Source: an uncultured Carboxylicivirga sp. (GTDB taxonomy: Bacteria; Bacteroidota; Bacteroidia; Bacteroidales; Marinilabiliaceae). Taken from it: a stretch of 64,000 nucleotides of DNA. The notes beneath the pieces were generated by a model that saw only the letters and a list, made by a program, of their open reading frames with translations, was not told where the DNA came from and ran no database searches. Every line of letters starts with the position of its first letter. Position 1 is the stretch's first letter. Location of the stretch: the NCBI GenBank assembly GCA_947491945.1, contig CANLLN010000024.1:1-64000 (forward strand). The letters are read 5' to 3'. A program made the position numbers and the translations under genes. Below are positions 14,551 to 25,302 of this stretch, one piece after another.

Positions 14551-15138
14551 TTAGGCCTCCTTTTTTACCTGATTAATAAATGCGATAAGGTAACCCAGTG
14601 CGATAAATGCGCCCGGTGCCAGCACAAATACCAGCATGCCGTAATTTTCGGGATAGATGATGGTGCCAAACAGCTTACCACTACCCAGTAACTCACGTAC
14701 TGACCCCAGGATGGTCAGTGCCATGGCAAAGCCCAGTCCCATGCCCAATCCGTCGATGACAGAAGCACCCAGCTTGTTTTTCGAAGCAAAGGCTTCGGCA
14801 CGGCCCAATACCAGGCAGTTTACTACGATCAGGGGAATAAATAATCCCAATGAATCGAACAGTGCCGGCACGTAGGCTTGCATGGTCATTTCAACGATGG
14901 TTACAAAGGTGGCTATCACTACAATAAATGATGGGATACGCACCTTATCGGGTATAAAATCCTTGATGACAGCCACTACCAGGTTCGACATTACTAATAC
15001 AAAGGTGGTGGCCAGTCCCATGCCCAAGCCATCAATGGCCGATGAGGTAACCCCCAATGTGGGACACATACCTAAGAGAAGGGTAAAAACCGCATTCTCT
15101 TTGAAAAATCCTTTTGAAAAATTACTCCACTGATTCAT
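14551..15138 (-). CDS. rnfE: Rnf electron transport complex subunit E
   Basis: 195 residues, six predicted transmembrane helices. It opens with FSKGFFKENAVFTLLLGMCPTLGVTSSA, the RnfE/NqrD hallmark in which the Cys of GMCPTLGV helps hold the membrane iron-sulfur cluster shared with RnfA. Its ATG overlaps the rnfG stop by 4 nt, so the two are translationally coupled. The C-terminal tail QVKKEA is cytoplasmic-like. Confidence 0.96.
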   Translation of the reverse strand: MNQWSNFSKGFFKENAVFTLLLGMCPTLGVTSSAIDGLGMGLATTFVLVMSNLVVAVIKDFIPDKVRIPSFIVVIATFVTIVEMTMQAYVPALFDSLGLFIPLIVVNCLVLGRAEAFASKNKLGASVIDGLGMGLGFAMALTILGSVRELLGSGKLFGTIIYPENYGMLVFVLAPGAFIALGYLIAFINQVKKEA

Positions 15139-15767
15139 TCTGTACCTCCTTCCTCAACTGAGGTATTATTGTCAGCCTTTGGGCTGCTCTGGTTTTCGCT
15201 ATAGGTTTCGTAGGCCACACGCACGGCATCTAAAAAGGCCCGTGAGCTAATGGTGGCCGCAGTAATGGCATCTACCTCACCGCCATCTTTGGTAATGGTC
15301 AGGTTGTTGGTTTTCGGATGTTTCCCAAGAATATTTTGCTGTCCTTTATCCGCTTTAAACCAATCGTCCATTTTGGTACCCAATCCAGGTGTTTCCTTGT
15401 GTTCGAGCACCTGATAGTTAATCAGTGTACCGTCGGGCTTAAGACCCACCATAATTTTTATGTTACCACCAAAACCTTTATTGGTCATGGATTCAATGGC
15501 TACACCCATTAGTTCATCGCCTTTTTTGGCGGGAAATACTTTTAAAGCAAAGCCTTCTTTGGAGGTGAGTTCATACATTTCATCGCCCGGGTTATTGTCA
15601 AAGCCCGGTACCACCTCTTTGATGGCGGCTTGTTGCTTAGCGGCTTTGGCCGCGGCTATGGGTCCCTTTGTGAGCTCGTACATAAAGCCCAGGGATGTAC
15701 CTGCTATGCCGGTGATGACCAGCAGGGTTAAAACCATATTTTTAAGCGTCGATTCTGTTTTTGCCAT
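15135..15767 (-). CDS. rnfG: Rnf electron transport complex subunit G
   Basis: 210 residues with one N-terminal transmembrane helix (MVLTLLVITGIAGTSLGFMYEL) and a periplasmic FMN-binding domain. The motif DAITAATISSRAFLDAV carries the Thr that ApbE esterifies to FMN; the usual SGAT is AAT here but the T-[IL]-[ST]-S pattern is kept. The acidic C-terminal tail is low complexity. It overlaps rnfE and lies 18 nt after rnfD. Confidence 0.95.
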   Translation of the reverse strand: MAKTESTLKNMVLTLLVITGIAGTSLGFMYELTKGPIAAAKAAKQQAAIKEVVPGFDNNPGDEMYELTSKEGFALKVFPAKKGDELMGVAIESMTNKGFGGNIKIMVGLKPDGTLINYQVLEHKETPGLGTKMDDWFKADKGQQNILGKHPKTNNLTITKDGGEVDAITAATISSRAFLDAVRVAYETYSENQSSPKADNNTSVEEGGTE

Positions 15768-15785
15768 GATTTATCTTTTTCCTGC

Positions 15786-16790
15786 TTAGGCTTTAGCGGT
15801 TTTCACAAGCTCGCCAAAACGCTTTGGTTTCACATATTTATCAATTAGCGGAACGAAGCCATTCATAATCAGGATGGCAAACGAGATTCCTTCGGGGTAG
15901 GCTCCAAATACCCTTATAACCACCGTGATGATACCAATGCCCACACCATATATAATCATGCCTTTTTTCGACATGGGCGAGCTCACATAGTCAGTGGCCA
16001 TAAAGATGGCACCTAGCATTACACCACCCGTTAGGAGGTGAAACAAGGGGCCGGCATACTGATCGGGGCTGCTCAGGTGCAGTAGTCCGGTAAAAGCTGC
16101 TATTGTAACGATGATGGAAGCCGGTATGTGCCAGGTGATTATTTTGCGGATGAGCATATAGGCCAGACCCATCAACAGTGCGGCAGCCGCTATTTCACCG
16201 GCCGAGCCACCCGAGTTACCAAAGAACAGTTCGGTGTAGGAGGGCAGCTTATCCATGATGGCGCTCACACTCTCACCATTGGCTAGCCCTTCTTTCATGA
16301 TCGATAGGGGTGTGGCGCCCGTGGTGGCATCCAAATACTCCAGCTGTATGGTTTGGGGTTTGGGCCACAGGGTCATCTGAACCGGGAAGCTGATCAGCAT
16401 AAATACACGGCCTACCAAGGCTGGGTTAAAGGGATTGTTACCCAATCCGCCAAACGACATTTTACCAATGCCAATGGCCACAAGGCTACCTATAATGATG
16501 ATCCATATCGGTAGGTTGCTGGGGATGTTAAATGCCAATAATAGCCCTGTTAAAGCGGCAGATCCATCCAGGATGGTCGATTCATTTTTTAACAGAAATT
16601 TCTGTATGGCCCATTCAAAAAATACGCATGAAACAACGGCCGTAAGGGTTACCACTACGGCACCCAGTCCGAAGTAATAAAGCGAGGCTGCCAGCGCGGG
16701 AAGAAGGGCTATAATCACCCCATACATGTTTTTCTTCACAGAGTCGCCACTGTGCACATGCGGGGATGGTGATACGATTAACCTATTCAT
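15786..16790 (-). CDS. rnfD: Rnf electron transport complex subunit D
   Basis: 334 residues, a polytopic membrane subunit starting SPSPHVHSGDSVKKNMYGVI, typical for RnfD/NqrB. The motif DATTGATPLS marks the Thr that carries covalent FMN. GGLGNNPFNPALVGRVF is a conserved loop of the family. An 84-nt gap separates it from rnfC, while rnfG follows closely. With RnfG it passes electrons across the membrane. Confidence 0.96.
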   Translation of the reverse strand: MNRLIVSPSPHVHSGDSVKKNMYGVIIALLPALAASLYYFGLGAVVVTLTAVVSCVFFEWAIQKFLLKNESTILDGSAALTGLLLAFNIPSNLPIWIIIIGSLVAIGIGKMSFGGLGNNPFNPALVGRVFMLISFPVQMTLWPKPQTIQLEYLDATTGATPLSIMKEGLANGESVSAIMDKLPSYTELFFGNSGGSAGEIAAAALLMGLAYMLIRKIITWHIPASIIVTIAAFTGLLHLSSPDQYAGPLFHLLTGGVMLGAIFMATDYVSSPMSKKGMIIYGVGIGIITVVIRVFGAYPEGISFAILIMNGFVPLIDKYVKPKRFGELVKTAKA

Positions 16791-16874
16791 CTTTATTAAT
16801 TTTCTTATTTCTTTATCTTTTCTTTAAGTCTGTTTTGACTTTACAAGCACCTTGTAAATGCTGTCAGCCAACAG

Positions 16875-18206
16875 CTATTTTGTTCTGCTGCGCATAATTT
16901 GTCCTACTTTACCTTTTCCAAGGCGGATATAATCCAGCAGCGGACGGTTGGCCGGGCAGGTAAAGCTGCATGAGCCACACTCGATACAATCCATTATCTT
17001 CTCTTCTTCGGCGCGATCCCAAACGGCTTTGTCCGAAACGGTCATCAGCAAGTAGGGTGATAAGCCCATGGGGCATACCGATACGCACTTAGAGCAGCGG
17101 ATACAGGCCTCCATCTTTGCGCGTTTGGCTATTTCTTTAGGCATGATGAGAATACCGGAACTGCCTTTGGTAATGGGCACCTCAGTGGAAACAAGGGCTT
17201 TACCCATCATTGGGCCACCGCCAATTACTTTCCCAGTATCCTGGGGCAGGCCGCCGGCAGCTTCAATCAGCTGATTCATGGGCGTGCCAATGCGAGCCAT
17301 GAAGTTAGAGGGTTTGGTCACCGATTTACCCGTAACGGTTACTACGCGCTCAAACAAGGGCTTGTTCTTTTGCACCGCCTCATACACAGCCAGGGTAGTG
17401 CCTATGTTTTGTACTACGGCACCCACTTCAATGGGTAGCTTACCCGATGGGATTTGGCGACCTATACAGGCGTCGATCAGTTGCTTTTCACCGCCTTGTG
17501 GGTATTGTACTTTTAGGGGCTGAATGCTGATGCCTGCATAGTTTTTGGCCAGTTCGCTCATCTGCTTAATGGCATCGGGCTTGTTATTTTCAATTCCAAT
17601 GATGGCGCGATCCACCTTCAGGGCTTTCATAAGAATTTGCGTGCCCACCATTATCTCATCGCCCTTTTCTATCATCAGCTGATGATCGGCTGTTAGGTAA
17701 GGCTCACACTCAACGCCGTTTAGTATGAGTACTTCGCAGGTTTTACCCGGAGGCACTGATAGCTTAACATGGGCGGGGAAGGTAGCACCTCCCAAACCCA
17801 CAATACCGGCGTCGCCTATCTTTTTAATGATTTCTTCGGGGCTTGCTGTTATTTCCGTTTTTAAGTCTTCTGAGCGATCAATGCTAGCATCCCACTCATC
17901 GCCTTCAGTCTTAATGATGATAGCTTTGCGCTTATAGCCACTGGCATCCAGTATATCATCTATTTTAAAGACTTTACCAGATACAGGTGAGTGGATATTG
18001 GCGGATACGAATCCGCTTGACTTGGCAATTAACTGACCCACTTTTACTTCATCGCCCTTTTTTACGATGGGTTCTGATGGTGCTCCAATATGTTGGGCAA
18101 TAGGAACCGAAACTTGCTCGGGAACGGGCAAGACTGCAATCTTCTGACCGGCCGAGAATTTGTTTTCTGCCGGGTGAACCCCTCCTAATGAGAATGTTTT
18201 TAACAC
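16875..18206 (-). CDS. rnfC: Rnf electron transport complex subunit C
   Basis: 443 residues, the peripheral NADH/FMN-binding subunit. It begins with the RnfC leader region (LGGVHPAENK), has a Gly-rich nucleotide site in GDAGIVGLGGATFPAHVKL and ends with two [4Fe-4S] ferredoxin motifs, CIRCSKCVSVCPMG and CIECGSCSFTCPANRPL. The long Ala/Glu-rich C-terminal extension of enterobacterial RsxC is absent, as usual in this phylum. A 110-nt gap separates it from rnfB. Confidence 0.96.
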   Translation of the reverse strand: MLKTFSLGGVHPAENKFSAGQKIAVLPVPEQVSVPIAQHIGAPSEPIVKKGDEVKVGQLIAKSSGFVSANIHSPVSGKVFKIDDILDASGYKRKAIIIKTEGDEWDASIDRSEDLKTEITASPEEIIKKIGDAGIVGLGGATFPAHVKLSVPPGKTCEVLILNGVECEPYLTADHQLMIEKGDEIMVGTQILMKALKVDRAIIGIENNKPDAIKQMSELAKNYAGISIQPLKVQYPQGGEKQLIDACIGRQIPSGKLPIEVGAVVQNIGTTLAVYEAVQKNKPLFERVVTVTGKSVTKPSNFMARIGTPMNQLIEAAGGLPQDTGKVIGGGPMMGKALVSTEVPITKGSSGILIMPKEIAKRAKMEACIRCSKCVSVCPMGLSPYLLMTVSDKAVWDRAEEEKIMDCIECGSCSFTCPANRPLLDYIRLGKGKVGQIMRSRTK

Positions 18207-18316
18207 GATTGGTCCTCCTATTTTATAATGTTTTTAATTCCTTTAATTCTTTCAAGACTATTCGCTGATAGCTTTTGGTTATTGTGTCTTCTGACTTCGT
18301 ACGCCGGACTTGCTGT

Positions 18317-19177
18317 TTACTCCGCTTTGGCTTCCGCAGGTTTTTCCACCTTGGGTTTTGGGGGTGGAAAGTTAACGATGTGGATGGCATTTGTCGGACA
18401 TTCTGCAACGCATTTGCGGCATAGCTTACACTTGTTGTAATCGATGTAAGCCAGGTTGTTTTCTACCGTGATGGCATCGAAAGGACAAATCTTCTGACAC
18501 TTCTTACAGCCAATACAAGCCGCCGAACATGCTTTTTTAGCGGCAGCGCCTTTGTCGGTGTTCACGCACGATACAAAGATGCGACGGTTCTTAGGTCCTT
18601 TCTTGCGCAACTCAATGATGTTTTTCGGGCAGGCATCCACACAGGCGCCACACGATACACAGTTGTCTTCAATAATTACCGGCAGTCCGGTTTCTTTGTC
18701 CATATACATGGCATTAAAGGCACAGGCATCCACACATTCGCCCAACCCCAGGCATCCGTTTGAACAGCCTGTATCGCCGCCATATAAGGATGAAGCGATG
18801 GTACAGGATGTAGCGCCATCGTACTCGGCAATGCGCGGACGGTTTTCACAGGTTCCATTACAGCGCACGACAGCAACCATGGGGTCGGCAGCTTTTACCT
18901 CCTTACCAAGGATTTCGGCAGCGGCCTTCATGGTGTCAGCACCACCTACCGGACAGTTTAGCGCGCTGATGTCATCCGACTTAACCATGGCTTCGGCGAA
19001 GGCACGACAGCCTGGAAAACCACAACCACCGCAGTTGGCAGCCGGAAGTACTTCCTCCACCTGATCGATGCGCGGATCTTCAAAAACCTTAAATTTTTGC
19101 GCTACAAAATAAAGTATGATGGCGGCCAATGCCCCCAAAACACCTAACGAGATTATAGTTATCAGAACAACATTCAT
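18317..19177 (-). CDS. rnfB: Rnf electron transport complex subunit B
   Basis: 286 residues. One N-terminal membrane helix ([24 protein letters not shown]) is followed by the Fe-S motif [16 protein letters not shown] with a further Cys downstream, then by Cys clusters including [46 protein letters not shown] and [16 protein letters not shown]. This is the ferredoxin-accepting subunit with several [4Fe-4S] clusters. Its ATG overlaps the stop of the RseC-like gene (4 nt), tying the two together. The C-terminus is a short Pro/Lys/Glu tail. Confidence 0.96.
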
Positions 19178-19605
19178 GATTCGTTGATTTGATGTTTTAT
19201 AGTAAATGAAAAAGTTCGTGTAAGCTTATCTTTTAAAAGATAAATGACGGCGTAATACGGAAGTAGAATAAAAAGGGCAAGACCACCGGCCAGTAACTCA
19301 TTGTTAGTAGTAAAGTAGGTACCACTTAGTGTAAGCAGCATGAGGATAATGGGATAGATGTAAGCCAGTAACACTGCCTTTGGAGCCAGCGATTTTCTGC
19401 CCATAAGAATGACTTTTTGCCCTACCGTAAAATTACCCTTTACCTCGTAAATGTCGATGAGTTTATCTTGCAAGTCGGCCGCGGTGCATGAACCTTTTGC
19501 ATGGCACGATGCACATGCCGATTCATTGACGATCCTGACTTTGATCAGTTGTGAAGATACTGCTTCTACAACGCCCTCGTGCTCTATGTAATCTATATCT
19601 GCCAT
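19174..19605 (-). CDS. RseC/MucC-like membrane protein, first gene of rnf operon
   Basis: About 143 residues from an ATG at 19605 ([20 protein letters not shown]). It has the RseC pattern: an N-terminal beta domain with [10 protein letters not shown] (Cys motif of the SoxR-reducing/RseC family) and two membrane helices ([43 protein letters not shown]). In other bacteria RseC is linked to sigma-E control or SoxR reduction, and in the Bacteroidota the gene regularly leads rnf operons. A TTG at 19647 would lengthen the frame but lies across the promoter. Confidence 0.9.
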
Positions 19606-19618
19606 ACGCGTAGGCTGA

Positions 19619-19647
19619 CAAAAGTAACGAAGTATTAGAATTGTCAA
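19619..19647 (-). promoter_or_regulatory. rnf operon promoter
   Basis: On the minus strand ATTG, an 18-nt spacer and TACTTTTG (complement of 19619-19626) fit the Bacteroidota promoter pattern with one slightly short spacer. It lies 13 nt upstream of the RseC-like ATG, giving a very short leader. Confidence 0.55.
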
Positions 19648-19850: not shown

Positions 19851-21893
19851 TCATAGGGTCAGGTGCAGACCCAGATACCAATGTAAGGGCGATGCCGGAT
19901 AATAATAGCGGGGTAGCTTATTACCAAAGGAAGGAGCATTGATAAGTACCATGGAGGCGTAGTGTTTGTTTAGGGCGTTGTTGAGCCCGAGGTACACATG
20001 TAGCCTTGCGGAGGGGAATTTAAAGGACTGATTGATTTTTGCGTTCAGCACGCCGTAATCTTCGTAGCGGAGGTTGTTGCTGTCGTTCAGAAACTGGCTG
20101 CCCCGGTGTCGGTAGTCAACGTTAAGGCTGGTGTTATTAATCGCATAGCGGGCACGTCCAAACACATCGTAGGTGGGAATGCCGGGCAGGTGCCTGCCTG
20201 CATAATCATTTCCAGCGTCAGTAAAAGTGACAAAGGTGTTGACCGAATGTGTAAAGGAGCTGGATAGTAATAGCTCGTGGCCGTGGGATAATTCTAAGCG
20301 GTGTTGCGCCAGCATCTCAATGCCTCTGTGCTTTGTTTTGCCGGCATTGACACCATAAAAGATGGCTTCGCTCTCCCGTTTTGTAACCAGTAAATTGCGC
20401 ATCCACATTCCATAGGCGGTCAGTTCTAATTGGGTATTTTTATTGGGTGATGCGTAACGCCAGCCGATGTCCAGATGATATCCTTCCTCCGGTTTTACAG
20501 TGGCATTGAAGCTGCCATCGGGCATCTGTGCCTCTTCCACCGAAGGTGCTGAAAAACCATGTCCGGCCGCAAGATAGATATTCATCACAGGCCGTAATTG
20601 ATAGTTAAGTCCAATGCGCGGAGAGGCAATCAGCGGATATTGGTGTCGGATAAAATCGCCGGTTTTGGAATGCTCAATGCGATACTGCGTTTTATTGAGA
20701 TTAAAGGCCATTTGTAAAATCAGTTTATCCCTTATGCTTTGTTCAGCAAGCAGAAAGAGATTCACATAACTGCGTTTTAGCTCTAGCCTGCTCAGCTGAT
20801 TGCCAAAGTCTTCATCATCGGTACTGAATAGTGCGAGGGTGTTGTACTCGAGCATAGCTTCCACACCCCCTTTGAGTTTGAACGAACCCTTTTCAAAGCT
20901 CAACTGATCACGAAGGCCGATGGTGTGCCTTGTGTCGCTCAGTTGATTGAAGGGGCGGAGTTCATCCAGGTCAGATGCTGAGAAGAAGATATTTGCTGAA
21001 TGATAGAGCGAGGATGAAAACTGGGTGGATAAGCCGGTGCTTACAAGGTGACGGCCTGACTTTTCGTATCCGCCAATGGCCTGCCATGCATCAGCTGCCT
21101 TTTCGGGTCTTTCGTTAAAGTCGATGCTGTCCAGTGAGCTGGGTATTTGACCATACAGATGCCGGTAGCTATATAGGTAGTTCACTTGGCTTTTGCCCAT
21201 TAAGTATTTTCCCTTTAGGGTGATGTTGTATCGTCTGTATTCACTGTTTTGGCGATAGCCACGGGTGGATAATTGCTGAGCGGTAATAAGAGTTCTGCTT
21301 TTGGGCGAGTTGAAGTTGAGGGACAGTTGGTTGGTGAGTGTTGAGAACCGTCCAATTTCACTATTCACCATAAGTTGCTGCCTGGTGTTAGGGGACGGCC
21401 AGGGATGTATAAGAATGACGCCTCCAAGGCCTGCGCCGTAAAGTGCTGAAGATGGACCTTTCAGTACTTGTATTGCATTGATATCGTTGAGGGCGATGTC
21501 TTCAATGGCCGTAACACCATCGCCGTCGGTCATGGGTACATTGCCCCAGTAGGCCTTAATACGATTACTATTATAAGGTGTTCTGGAGCCAATGCCACGG
21601 ATGGTAATGCGATTGGTGCTTAAGGTACCCTGTTGCATTAACACACCCGGCATTTGGTTAATGTATTCGGCTATGTTAAAGCTGTTAGCTGATTGCAAGC
21701 TTAACGAGTCGAGGGATGAAATACTACCCGGCCAATCTTCAGGGGAGCCTACAAGGGAGCTGGCACGAATGCTTACTTCATCCAGACTGTGATGGATGGT
21801 GTCGCCTGAATTATCGCTTGTAGCAGGGTTCTGCGACAGCCCCTGAATGGCACTGAATACAGCAATGACTAATAAGTATAAGCGCATAGGCAA
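19851..21893 (-). CDS. TonB-dependent receptor, candidate PQQ importer
   Basis: 680 residues. After a signal peptide there is a plug domain (IAEYINQMPGVLMQQGTLSTNRITIRGIG as two adjoining segments, with VLKGPSSALYGAGLGGVI) and a 22-strand type barrel ending in LHWYLGLHLTL. No carboxypeptidase-regulatory N-terminal extension is present, so it is a classical receptor and not a SusC. It begins 2 nt after the stop of a PQQ sugar dehydrogenase gene. E. coli PqqU (YncD) is a receptor for the cofactor PQQ; by context this one may do the same. The sequence alone cannot show the ligand. Confidence 0.9.
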   Translation of the reverse strand: MPMRLYLLVIAVFSAIQGLSQNPATSDNSGDTIHHSLDEVSIRASSLVGSPEDWPGSISSLDSLSLQSANSFNIAEYINQMPGVLMQQGTLSTNRITIRGIGSRTPYNSNRIKAYWGNVPMTDGDGVTAIEDIALNDINAIQVLKGPSSALYGAGLGGVILIHPWPSPNTRQQLMVNSEIGRFSTLTNQLSLNFNSPKSRTLITAQQLSTRGYRQNSEYRRYNITLKGKYLMGKSQVNYLYSYRHLYGQIPSSLDSIDFNERPEKAADAWQAIGGYEKSGRHLVSTGLSTQFSSSLYHSANIFFSASDLDELRPFNQLSDTRHTIGLRDQLSFEKGSFKLKGGVEAMLEYNTLALFSTDDEDFGNQLSRLELKRSYVNLFLLAEQSIRDKLILQMAFNLNKTQYRIEHSKTGDFIRHQYPLIASPRIGLNYQLRPVMNIYLAAGHGFSAPSVEEAQMPDGSFNATVKPEEGYHLDIGWRYASPNKNTQLELTAYGMWMRNLLVTKRESEAIFYGVNAGKTKHRGIEMLAQHRLELSHGHELLLSSSFTHSVNTFVTFTDAGNDYAGRHLPGIPTYDVFGRARYAINNTSLNVDYRHRGSQFLNDSNNLRYEDYGVLNAKINQSFKFPSARLHVYLGLNNALNKHYASMVLINAPSFGNKLPRYYYPASPLHWYLGLHLTL

Positions 21894-21895
21894 AT

Positions 21896-23317
21896 TTACA
21901 AGGGGACGAGTCGGTATATTTTTCCCGGTTTTTCCACGGCAATGTAGATGTAGCCATCCGGACTCATCTCCACATTGCGCACACGACCAATTCCTTCCAG
22001 TAGTTTTTCTTCGTGCACCACTTTGTCGCCTTCCAGCACCACACGGTGCAGGTATTCGAAGCGCAGTGATCCGGTTAAGATATTATTTTTCCAGTTGGGA
22101 TATCGATCTCCTTTCACAAAGGTCATCCCACAGGGGGCAATGCTGGGCACCCAATAGTGCAAGGGTTGCTCCATGCCGGCGCGTGCGGTGTCGTTGGTGA
22201 AAATAGTGCCGTTATAATTGATGCCAAATGAAATGAGCGGCCATCCGTAGTTTTTGCCGGCCTCAATAATGTTAATTTCATCGCCACCTTTGGGGCCATG
22301 CTCATCGGTCCAGATGCGACCCGTAACAGGATGCATGCACAAGCCCTGAGGGTTGCGATGGCCATAGGAGTAGATGCTGGGTTGTGCATCTTTGGTAGCT
22401 ACGAAAGGGTTGTCGCTGGGTATGCGGCCATCGTCGTGTATGCGATGGACTTTACCACAGTCGTTATCCAGTGCCTGCGGGTAACGGTCGCGTTCGCCAC
22501 GATCGCCCACCGAGAAATAGAGGTAGCCCTCCTTGTCAAATTCCAGCTTACAGCCGTAGTGGTGCCTCTTATCCGTCAGGGGTAAGGCCTGAAAGATTAC
22601 CTCCTTGTTGGTCAATTGATTGTCGATCAACTGAGCCCGCATGATGGCTGTGTTACCCTTGCTTTTATCCTTAGCATCGGGTGCCGAGTAAGCCAGGTAA
22701 ATCCAGCCGTTGTCTTCGTATTGGGGGTGCAGTTCCAGATCGAGTAAACCGCCCTGCCCCCGCGCTATTACCTCCGGTGTATTGTCAATAATAATGGCTT
22801 GGTGGCCTTGCCTGTAGTGCAACAGTTGGCCGTTGCGCTCTGAAATGAGTAGGCTCCCATCCGGCATAAATTCAAGACCCCAGGGGACATCCAGTCCATC
22901 AAGCACTAATTCAAGGCGAAATTTTTGCTCCTCGCTTTCATGTACTTCACCTTTATCACTTCGATCAGCCACTTCATCTTTATGCTGATTGGCCAACGTA
23001 ATAACATAGTCGCTCAGCTCATTAATCTGCTCATCGCTGAGACCATTGCCAAACGGGGGCATGCCAAAGGCATTTCTTCCGTGTTTTATGCTCTTGAATA
23101 TTTCCTCCTTTGAATTGCCAAAAAGCCATTGGCGGTTGATGAATGATGATTTTTTATCGTTATGACAGCTAATACAGTAGGTTTTGTATAACTGTGCTGT
23201 TTTATCACTAGTGGTGGCTTGCTTGTCAGCCTTAGCAGTGCAGCCTATCGTGCTACCTATTATGCTGCTGATTAAAAATGGAAGAATGGTGATTGGTATT
23301 ATCAAATATCGTTTCAT
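21896..23317 (-). CDS. Cytochrome c-PQQ sugar dehydrogenase fusion
   Basis: 473 residues. An N-terminal signal, possibly lipoprotein (STIGC, Cys26), precedes a cytochrome c domain with CISCH (48-52) and a Met ligand in AFGMPPFG. Residues about 130-473 are the GSDH six-bladed propeller: VPWGLEFMPDGSLLISERNG, RGQGGLLDLELHPQY (active-site His), SVGDRGERDRYPQALDN and YGHRNPQGLCMHPVTG, as in soluble PQQ-dependent aldose sugar dehydrogenases of the YliI type. Oxidation of an aldose could thus feed electrons through the attached heme to the periplasmic chain. No pqq biosynthesis gene is in the window. The TonB receptor follows by 2 nt. Confidence 0.93.
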   Translation of the reverse strand: MKRYLIIPITILPFLISSIIGSTIGCTAKADKQATTSDKTAQLYKTYCISCHNDKKSSFINRQWLFGNSKEEIFKSIKHGRNAFGMPPFGNGLSDEQINELSDYVITLANQHKDEVADRSDKGEVHESEEQKFRLELVLDGLDVPWGLEFMPDGSLLISERNGQLLHYRQGHQAIIIDNTPEVIARGQGGLLDLELHPQYEDNGWIYLAYSAPDAKDKSKGNTAIMRAQLIDNQLTNKEVIFQALPLTDKRHHYGCKLEFDKEGYLYFSVGDRGERDRYPQALDNDCGKVHRIHDDGRIPSDNPFVATKDAQPSIYSYGHRNPQGLCMHPVTGRIWTDEHGPKGGDEINIIEAGKNYGWPLISFGINYNGTIFTNDTARAGMEQPLHYWVPSIAPCGMTFVKGDRYPNWKNNILTGSLRFEYLHRVVLEGDKVVHEEKLLEGIGRVRNVEMSPDGYIYIAVEKPGKIYRLVPL

Positions 23318-23415: not shown

Positions 23416-24129
23416 TTATTTCTGGGGATGCAACACAAAGACCCTTGCACCTGTGTGATCCATGGTAGTACATTGGCTGTGCCAAATTCTGTTGCCCAGA
23501 TCAAGCTCTTCTTCAGCCAGCTTCCATCCACCCAAGGGCCTCAGGGCGTTGCGTGCTTCGTTGAAGGAAATGTAGTGATGCACAGGGCCATCCTCGCGGC
23601 TAAAGGCGCCAGTTGATAGGTGTACAACTTGCTTTTGACTGCTTAGTCGGTGTCCTGTAAATACTCTTGCGTGATTATTGGGTAGATTGGGATTAGGATG
23701 ATCGGACCAAGTGCCTGAATAGCGGAATAACCATTTGCCATCAACATACGCAAAGTATCGTGTTGAGGAGCCTGATCGCACGTTCCAGCCATTGCTTATG
23801 AGAAATTGCTCTATATTTTTTGAGGCTTCCAATTCGTCATTGGCGCGCAAGTCGATCCAGATAATATTAATGGGCTCCAGTATATCCGGATTATACCAGT
23901 TGAGCCAGTTGGCGATGGCATTTTCTTTCAAGGCTTTCTTTTTGAACATCCACAGCCCAATAGAAGCCTCCAGGGTGTCTTCTTCCAAATAATTAATGCT
24001 AATGTTTTTCGTTAAGGCAAGATCAGGGGCATATGTTTTTGAGGACGGCTTCACATAATCGTTGGCGCAACCATTGTAGATGATTGCGATAAATGTGATG
24101 GGTAAAAAGTACCTGAGGTTCATCATCAT
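23416..24129 (-). CDS. Lipoprotein of unknown function
   Basis: 237 residues. Signal peptide MNLRYFLPITFIAIIYNGC points to lipidation of the Cys, although the lipobox (YNGC) is not ideal. The mature part has many Trp and His (WLNWYNPDILEPINIIW, GKWLFRYSGTWSDHPNPN, GPVHHYISF, GNRIWHSQCTTMDHTG) and no family I recognise. Three consecutive ATG codons start the frame. It lies 98 nt upstream of the PQQ dehydrogenase gene in the same direction and may be part of that transcript. Confidence 0.6.
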   Translation of the reverse strand: MMMNLRYFLPITFIAIIYNGCANDYVKPSSKTYAPDLALTKNISINYLEEDTLEASIGLWMFKKKALKENAIANWLNWYNPDILEPINIIWIDLRANDELEASKNIEQFLISNGWNVRSGSSTRYFAYVDGKWLFRYSGTWSDHPNPNLPNNHARVFTGHRLSSQKQVVHLSTGAFSREDGPVHHYISFNEARNALRPLGGWKLAEEELDLGNRIWHSQCTTMDHTGARVFVLHPQK

Positions 24130-24354: not shown

Positions 24355-25302
24355 ATGAAGATTGCAATTATAGGAAGCGGGGGTGTAGGTGGATACTTTG
24401 GTGCTAAGTTGGCGCAAGCGGGTAATGACGTTACTTTCGTGGCTCGGGGAGCGCATTTAAAAGCCATCCGGGATAAGGGATTGTTGGTAAAGAGTATTAA
24501 AGGAGATATACACATTGCCGATGCACAGGCCACTGAGCGCATCTGGGATATTGACAAGGCCGATTTGGTTTTGACGGCTGTTAAGGCCTGGCAGGTGAAA
24601 GATATTAGGGATGAGGTAAAGCAAATACTGCATGATAGCAGTATCGTATTACCGCTGCAAAATGGTGTTATGGCTGCCGATGAGTTGGCCGAAGTGATAC
24701 CCGGTAAACATGTTATGGGTGGCTTGTGTCGCATTTTTAGCCTGATAGAAGCACCGGGGGTGGTCCATCATGTTGGTTTTAAGCCCGAGATTGTATTTGG
24801 CGAACGCAGTGGTGTGCACTCATCGCGTATGGATACATTAAGCCGCCTTTTTGAGCAGGCAGGCATAGCCCATAAGGCATCGCACGACATTGAAGCCGAT
24901 GTATGGAAGAAGTTTATTTTTATTTGCACCAGCGCCTTGTTGGCTGTTACAAAAACCAGTTATGGTGAACTGCGCGATTTGAAAGAGACTCGAGAGATGA
25001 TGGTGAGTTTGTTGAATGAAATCTATGCCGTGTCGCAGAAAAAAGGGGTGTCCATCAAAGCCGATTTTATTGAGAAGACGATAGCGGTGATTGACGCTGT
25101 GGACTATGATGCAACCTCTTCCTTAACACGAGACGTGTGGGCGGGTAAACCATCGGAAATTGAATATCAGAATGGAACGGTTGTTAAACTGGCAGAGCGA
25201 TATGGAGTGGATGTGCCGCTCAACCGCTTTATCTATAATTGTATATTGCCCATGGAATTGAAGGCGAGAGGGGAATTTGAGCGCCGTTCTAACAAACAAT
25301 AA
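24355..25302 (+). CDS. panE: 2-dehydropantoate 2-reductase (ketopantoate reductase family)
   Basis: 315 residues. The Rossmann motif GSGGVGGYFGAKLAQAG at the N-terminus binds NADPH; VLPLQNGV and GGLCRIFS follow the family pattern, and the C-terminal helical domain contains SLTRDVWAGKPSEIEYQNG, close to the ApbA/PanE signature with the substrate-binding region. The enzyme would reduce ketopantoate to pantoate for coenzyme A synthesis, although many family members act on other 2-oxoacids. It is the first gene of a short plus-strand run with the SMR transporter. Confidence 0.88.
   Translation: MKIAIIGSGGVGGYFGAKLAQAGNDVTFVARGAHLKAIRDKGLLVKSIKGDIHIADAQATERIWDIDKADLVLTAVKAWQVKDIRDEVKQILHDSSIVLPLQNGVMAADELAEVIPGKHVMGGLCRIFSLIEAPGVVHHVGFKPEIVFGERSGVHSSRMDTLSRLFEQAGIAHKASHDIEADVWKKFIFICTSALLAVTKTSYGELRDLKETREMMVSLLNEIYAVSQKKGVSIKADFIEKTIAVIDAVDYDATSSLTRDVWAGKPSEIEYQNGTVVKLAERYGVDVPLNRFIYNCILPMELKARGEFERRSNKQ

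Follow-up and report, generated by a model that had tools for sequence, protein, structure and literature searches.

In Escherichia coli, the receptor PqqU (YncD) is said to have been identified as an importer of pyrroloquinoline quinone (PQQ) by Hantke and Friz in 2022. The published account of the E. coli K-12 protein describes a TonB-dependent PQQ importer, recognised by an aromatic residue at position 99 (Y/F/W99) together with R304 and R365 (Munder et al. 2025, PMC12124388). That account already covers Bacteroidota in which PqqU occurs without PQQ synthesis: none of 206 Bacteroidota genomes with PqqU is reported to hold PQQ biosynthesis genes, and 67% of PqqU carriers have a predicted PQQ dehydrogenase, which leaves about a third without one (PMC12124388). 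The quinoprotein search described there used PF01011, PF13360, PF13570 and a hidden Markov model of Diamond et al.; PF07995 does not appear in the main text. Here we analyse a window of 64,000 nucleotides (nt) from an uncultured Carboxylicivirga sp. of the order Bacteroidales (assembly GCA_947491945.1, contig CANLLN010000024.1, positions 1 to 64,000), in which a gene for a sugar dehydrogenase of the GSDH family (PF07995), fused to a heme c domain, is followed by one for a TonB-dependent receptor. Sequence comparisons and a structure model suggest that the two probably form a unit for scavenging and using PQQ, in which the receptor would import the cofactor for the adjoining enzyme.

Both genes lie on the minus strand, at the positions given to them by the initial annotation:

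21896..23317, minus strand: GSDH fusion, a predicted lipoprotein with heme c and GSDH domains (PF13442, PF07995), YliI/Asd-like
21894..21895, minus strand: gap between the enzyme and receptor genes, as read from the sequence, 2 nt long (8 nt from the ATG start)
19851..21893, minus strand: TonB-dependent receptor of a clade placed provisionally beside PqqU, with plug and beta-barrel domains; start at TTG 21893 or ATG 21887

The enzyme gene encodes 473 amino acids and the receptor gene downstream of it 680. At their junction, the stop codon is followed by two bases and then by TTG, CCT and an in-frame ATG, 6 nt past the TTG. The 2-nt spacing initially noted therefore stands with the TTG start and not with the ATG, which we judge to be the likelier start, with the better signal peptide. 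The two genes may be co-transcribed. Receptor residue numbers used below follow the query 19851-21890, from which the TTG codon is excluded.

The enzyme had been described as a fusion of cytochrome c and a PQQ sugar dehydrogenase, and profile matches agree: residues 39-105 match Cytochrome_CBB3 (PF13442, 2.5e-12), with a single CxxCH motif at residue 48, and residues 142-469 match GSDH (PF07995, 2.2e-127, 425.4 bits for a cut-off of 25). By our own reading, the N-terminus carries a lipobox-like signal. The best NCBIfam model is that of PQQ-dependent glucose/sorbosone dehydrogenase (TIGR03606), yet its 141.9 bits fall under the cut-off of 434.55. The GSDH part finds its best PDB sequence matches in 7cdy and 2g8s, and over 346 columns aligned with E. 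coli YliI it reaches an identity of 40%. Alignment to the PDB entry 5min reveals equivalents of six residues of soluble glucose dehydrogenase (GDH), Q76, H144, R228, N229, G247 and P248, which we take to be those that bind PQQ and Ca2+. In an alignment of 52 rows (the window enzyme, 50 open reading frames (ORFs) of related loci and YliI) the last five of these are found in every row, and Q76 in 51, with a gap in the remaining one. A PF07995 search of the window's own genome found the window gene as sole match, and a model of quinoprotein alcohol dehydrogenases reached at most 31.5 bits there, for a cut-off of 480.

Profile, sequence and fold all point to PqqU as the nearest relative of the receptor. 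The PqqU model NF041535 was the best among the 20 NCBIfam models listed for it (8.9e-36, 123.4 bits), and across its own genome the receptor was the best match to that model, in two pieces of 63.8 and 61.4 bits, the next gene reaching 30.2. The top PDB sequence matches were the YncD/PqqU entries 6v81 and 9c4o (6.4e-25 and 1.2e-24), followed by 6i96 (2.1e-10), a FoxA structure that is called CntO in the chain list. An AlphaFold2 model of the receptor, built from 61 alignment rows, had a predicted local distance difference test score (pLDDT) of 88.2 and a predicted template modelling score (pTM) of 0.85. Foldseek ranked PqqU with bound PQQ first for this model (8.9e-45; FhuA 2.1e-33), and the fold comparison was headed by the same complex, 9c4o, with a Z-score of 45.4 and a root-mean-square deviation of 1.7 A over 617 residues at 20% identity. 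Since the fold is shared by all TonB receptors, only the margin to PqqU is informative here: apo PqqU scored 41.9 and the first entry other than PqqU, FecA, 38.2, that is, 7 Z units under 9c4o. In a tree of 77 rows, thinned from 90 and drawn from 121 joint rows plus 7 outgroup rows, the window clade is monophyletic (support 100), as is PqqU (99), and a branch with a support of 93 joins the two. This joining branch rests on the 7 outgroup rows, 5 of them flagged as long, and many rows of the tree have an odd composition, so that we place the clade as sister to PqqU provisionally. The closest receptor rows in the tree set are at most 55% identical to the window receptor, and they point to Carboxylicivirga or a near relative as its probable source; one relative of the receptor, L056, is from Carboxylicivirga mesophila.

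The association of the two genes extends well beyond this genome. Counting as linked any receptor gene with a GSDH-family ORF within 1500 nt, we found the pair in 57 of 80 loci, these being the best 80 of 463 receptor relatives; 3 of the 80 had no upstream sequence. The enzyme gene lies upstream on the same strand in 55 of the linked loci (1000 nt from the receptor in one of them, L108), and is divergent in one and downstream in another. As to type, 51 are close GSDH relatives (two of them truncated by the end of a contig), five are distant, Flavobacterium-type proteins, and one locus, L072, retains just a GSDH fragment. In a set of 395 genomes drawn evenly over the phylum, 28 had the receptor, and 16 of 27 loci, leaving the window aside and with flanks of 1.5 kb, had a GSDH-family gene, 5 of them close and 11 distant; the close ones include convergent and downstream arrangements. 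The pair is thus conserved, a point that the initial annotation had put forward for checking, although the counts of 57 and 16 are weaker than they look because of the 5 and 11 distant enzymes that they contain. Within the order, linkage is found in 6 of 10 genomes with the receptor, two of them (G013 and G040) by weak, distant matches.

Co-occurrence at the level of genomes points the same way. Among 149 genomes of the order, PF07995 was detected in 18 and the receptor in 10, all of these among the 18 (the PF07995 match in G013 has an E-value of only 1e-7), and among the 395 of the phylum PF07995 was found in 274, including, as checked by eye, all 28 with the receptor. The hypergeometric probabilities are 4e-11 for the order and 2e-5 for the phylum, with kinship ignored. 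PF07995 was also present in 21 of 24 genomes whose receptor had been taken as unlinked, one of these loci (L124) being in fact linked to a distant enzyme. The representative genes around unlinked receptors belong to unrelated families; the outcome named beforehand as refuting, that is, receptors linked mostly to other substrates such as siderophores, was not seen in the loci. Receptors of the Proteiniphilum type and related loci (L113, L117, L118, L123, L125 and L132) have no adjoining GSDH; the genes near them include one for a dicarboxylate symporter or else one for a manganese efflux pump, and all six genomes hold PF07995 elsewhere. The arrangement also occurs with PqqU receptors that carry the full signature: in G242 a heme c-GSDH gene stands directly upstream, in the same layout as in the window, and in G402 the GSDH neighbour is divergent. 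Linkage to other quinoproteins, considered as a sharper way to tell cofactor import from substrate import, did not discriminate: a search for Gcd gave no match in 95 loci, and a single YncE-like ORF was found, in L073.

If the enzyme works with PQQ, the cofactor would probably have to be imported, because neither PqqC nor a PqqE over its cut-off was recognised in the genome. PqqC had no match in it, a result that is uninformative alone as 14 control genomes were equally silent. The best PqqE match scored 60.2 bits for a cut-off of 381.35; none of 10 genomes had a match over it, and all 14 controls had matches, none over it either. One PqqD match did exceed its cut-off (contig C2, 164801-165013). 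Judging by the translations, this small gene sits between a TsaD-like and a kinase-like gene, the latter with a GTGKST motif, an arrangement that we assume to belong to peptide-modification clusters rather than to PQQ synthesis. We discarded in-house synthesis as a source of PQQ on the basis of this PqqD-like gene without pqq neighbours and of the results for PqqC and PqqE, PqqA and PqqB not having been searched. Of the absence of pqqA-E that had been expected, the part concerning PqqC and an above-cut-off PqqE was thus borne out, with weak controls, and the part concerning PqqD was not; within the same scope of PqqC and PqqE, no complete pathway was seen.

We infer from these data the following route. 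The receptor would bind PQQ at the cell surface and pass it, powered by TonB, into the periplasm, where the co-encoded lipoprotein dehydrogenase would take it up together with Ca2+. The holoenzyme could then oxidise aldoses at C1, and the electrons would move to its own heme c and from there into respiration. This coupling of PQQ uptake to aldose oxidation is what the initial annotation had suggested, and both the conserved linkage and PqqU as the nearest relative argue for it.

Several observations weigh against this proposal, and a first group concerns the receptor itself. Its 123.4 bits are far from the equivalog cut-off of NF041535, 1200 bits, and matches to that model with E <= 1e-15 occur in 272 of 395 genomes of the phylum, many of them far above the window receptor; the best of them has 415.6 bits, and no genome of the 395 has a match over the cut-off. 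As regards the signature, the equivalent of Y99 is kept (Y106), but two sequence-based alignments place a serine at R304, and at R365 the large alignment has a leucine and the small one a gap, in a gappy region. The full signature is found in none of 117 clade members (the window receptor, 89 relatives and 27 from the evenly drawn genomes), versus 25 of 30 closer PqqU relatives: an aromatic residue occupies position 99 in 116 of the 117, R304 is present in 11 (6 of the 89 and 5 of the 27) and R365 in none. The comparison with PqqU that had been called for thus divides, the receptor being nearest to it in sequence and fold while failing the cut-off and two of the three residues, which is why we label it PqqU-like and not PqqU. 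The 30 PqqU relatives are the best matches to the model in Bacteroidota; 25 have all three residues and 5 none. The latter (L157, L158, L159, L169 and L173) are strong matches with S99, K304 and I or V365 that form a clade of their own, and perhaps they have another ligand.

The clade has conserved residues of its own that could compensate for this loss. A pair formed by E310 and R312 is invariant in the 117 members, and falls on Q308/Q310 of PqqU in the large alignment and on Q310/I312 in the small one. Q308 and Q310 are among the PQQ-site residues tested in PqqU (Munder et al., PMC12124388). As the placement of E310 and R312 differs between alignments, an R312 facing PQQ is a proposal only. 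R505, conserved in 99% of the clade, lies near R536 of PqqU in the alignment, and we suggest that R312 and R505 might stand in for R304, R365 and R536.

A second group of adverse observations concerns the linkage. The 80 loci were chosen as the most similar and not at random, and 20 of them have a receptor without adjoining GSDH; in 3 of the 24 genomes whose receptor had been regarded as unlinked, PF07995 was not found either. PqqU proper is rarely found by a GSDH gene, with one case among its 30 best matches, that of G242, within flanks of 1.5 kb, and none among seven loci with flanks of 4-6 kb (L187-L193), so the habit of a GSDH neighbour is much weaker in PqqU proper than in the window clade. 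A good part of the linkage outside Bacteroidales, like that in L043/L044, is to distant proteins of the GSDH fold, which are only candidate users of PQQ. The Flavobacterium-type enzymes belong here (L101, L104, L124, L133, L135, L194-L198, L203, L205-L207, L210 and L212). We had considered them as soluble-GDH-like and dropped this idea after a scan: the L101 enzyme gave a weak PF07995 match and DUF7133, and a PVC-type model stayed below its cut-off for enzymes of this type. The match of the L043/L044 partners is weaker still. A GLRNP- or GIRNP-like motif is kept in the Flavobacterium-type enzymes, and their linkage to the receptor hints that these proteins may use PQQ.

Other ligands would also account for parts of this picture. 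TonB receptors that take up glycans are numerous in Bacteroidota, and this one could import what the dehydrogenase oxidises, either an oligosaccharide or a sugar acid, as part of a small locus for sugar use. Linkage to one enzyme family would fit this equally, but we consider it rather unlikely: the receptor reaches just 49.9 bits with the SusC/RagA model TIGR04056, under its cut-off of 368.25, no SusD was found among the three neighbouring genes scanned, and its nearest kin is PqqU and no glycan receptor. Simple aldoses, moreover, normally pass through porins, and in two genomes it is a signature-positive PqqU that has the GSDH neighbour. More improbable still, in our view, is a receptor for ferric siderophores or another metal chelate that lies near the dehydrogenase by chance. 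Such a function would agree with the second-best NCBIfam model of the receptor, the siderophore receptor model TIGR01783, whose 100.6 bits come close to those of PqqU, and with FoxA and FecA as the next entries by PDB sequence and by fold; yet this score is itself under its cut-off (223.5), no siderophore genes were found in the neighbours scanned, and the linkage in 57 of 80 loci speaks against chance, as does the presence of PF07995 in all 10 genomes of the order that have the receptor.

A variant compatible with PQQ import concerns the form in which PQQ would be taken up. At the position of PqqU K274, a glutamate is present in the window receptor, in 54 of the 89 other clade members and in 17 of the 27 from the evenly drawn genomes, and uptake of PQQ as a complex with Ca2+ or a lanthanide might follow from it. 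Such uptake has been suggested for PqqU proteins that have this glutamate, on the basis of models with a metal placed at it, as a modelling proposal with the metal at low confidence (Munder et al., PMC12124388). With lysine in 28 of the 89 and in 10 of the 27, and glutamine in 7 of the 89, we regard this variant as unlikely. A broader idea, in which the clade would form another class of PQQ importers next to PqqU, with moved carboxylate-binding arginines, a glutamate for PQQ-metal uptake in many members and delivery to the dehydrogenase next door, is somewhat doubtful.

The surroundings of the unit comprise the following genes:

23416..24129, minus strand: upstream ORF, proposed as a lipoprotein and judged to lie outside the unit
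24355..25302, plus strand: gene resembling those of ketopantoate reductases (match above the TIGR00745 cut-off), pointing away from the unit
19174..19647: RseC-like gene (PF04246), between the receptor and the Rnf-like genes
14551..19177, minus strand: downstream genes whose translations resemble those of an Rnf electron-transport operon

The upstream ORF had been considered a possible third member. We dropped it because a Pfam and NCBIfam scan gave no family at E <= 0.001 and because no relative was found at E <= 0.01 in 125 loci, 30 of them with flanks of 1.5 kb only.

In the open-licence literature, with preprints and supplements outside the scope, we found no description of this receptor clade, its altered residues or its linkage to GSDH. 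If the clade does import PQQ, the three-residue rule undercounts importers, and more Bacteroidota would scavenge PQQ than the published counts suggest, in a clade that the signature overlooks. Its likely clients, the PF07995 enzymes, are unnamed among the families of the quinoprotein search in the main text of Munder et al. (PMC12124388). More generally, the conserved linkage offers a testable handle on the ligand specificity of a TonB receptor, which sequence alone rarely gives.

Compared with known systems, the receptor is closest to E. coli PqqU, which came first in the profile, sequence and fold comparisons alike and with which it shares Y99. It departs from it in having S for R304, L for R365, E for K274 and a clade-wide E..R pair, and in the position of its gene, which is beside a GSDH gene and not, as pqqU, beside yncE. 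The window enzyme has the same putative PQQ and Ca2+ residues as E. coli YliI (Asd; PDB 2g8s), to which it adds the N-terminal lipobox-like signal and the heme c domain. Unlike the PqqU of the 206 Bacteroidota genomes of Munder et al. (PMC12124388), the clade falls outside the Y/F/W99-R304-R365 selection rule; like that PqqU, it would be a presumed PQQ importer of the same phylum.

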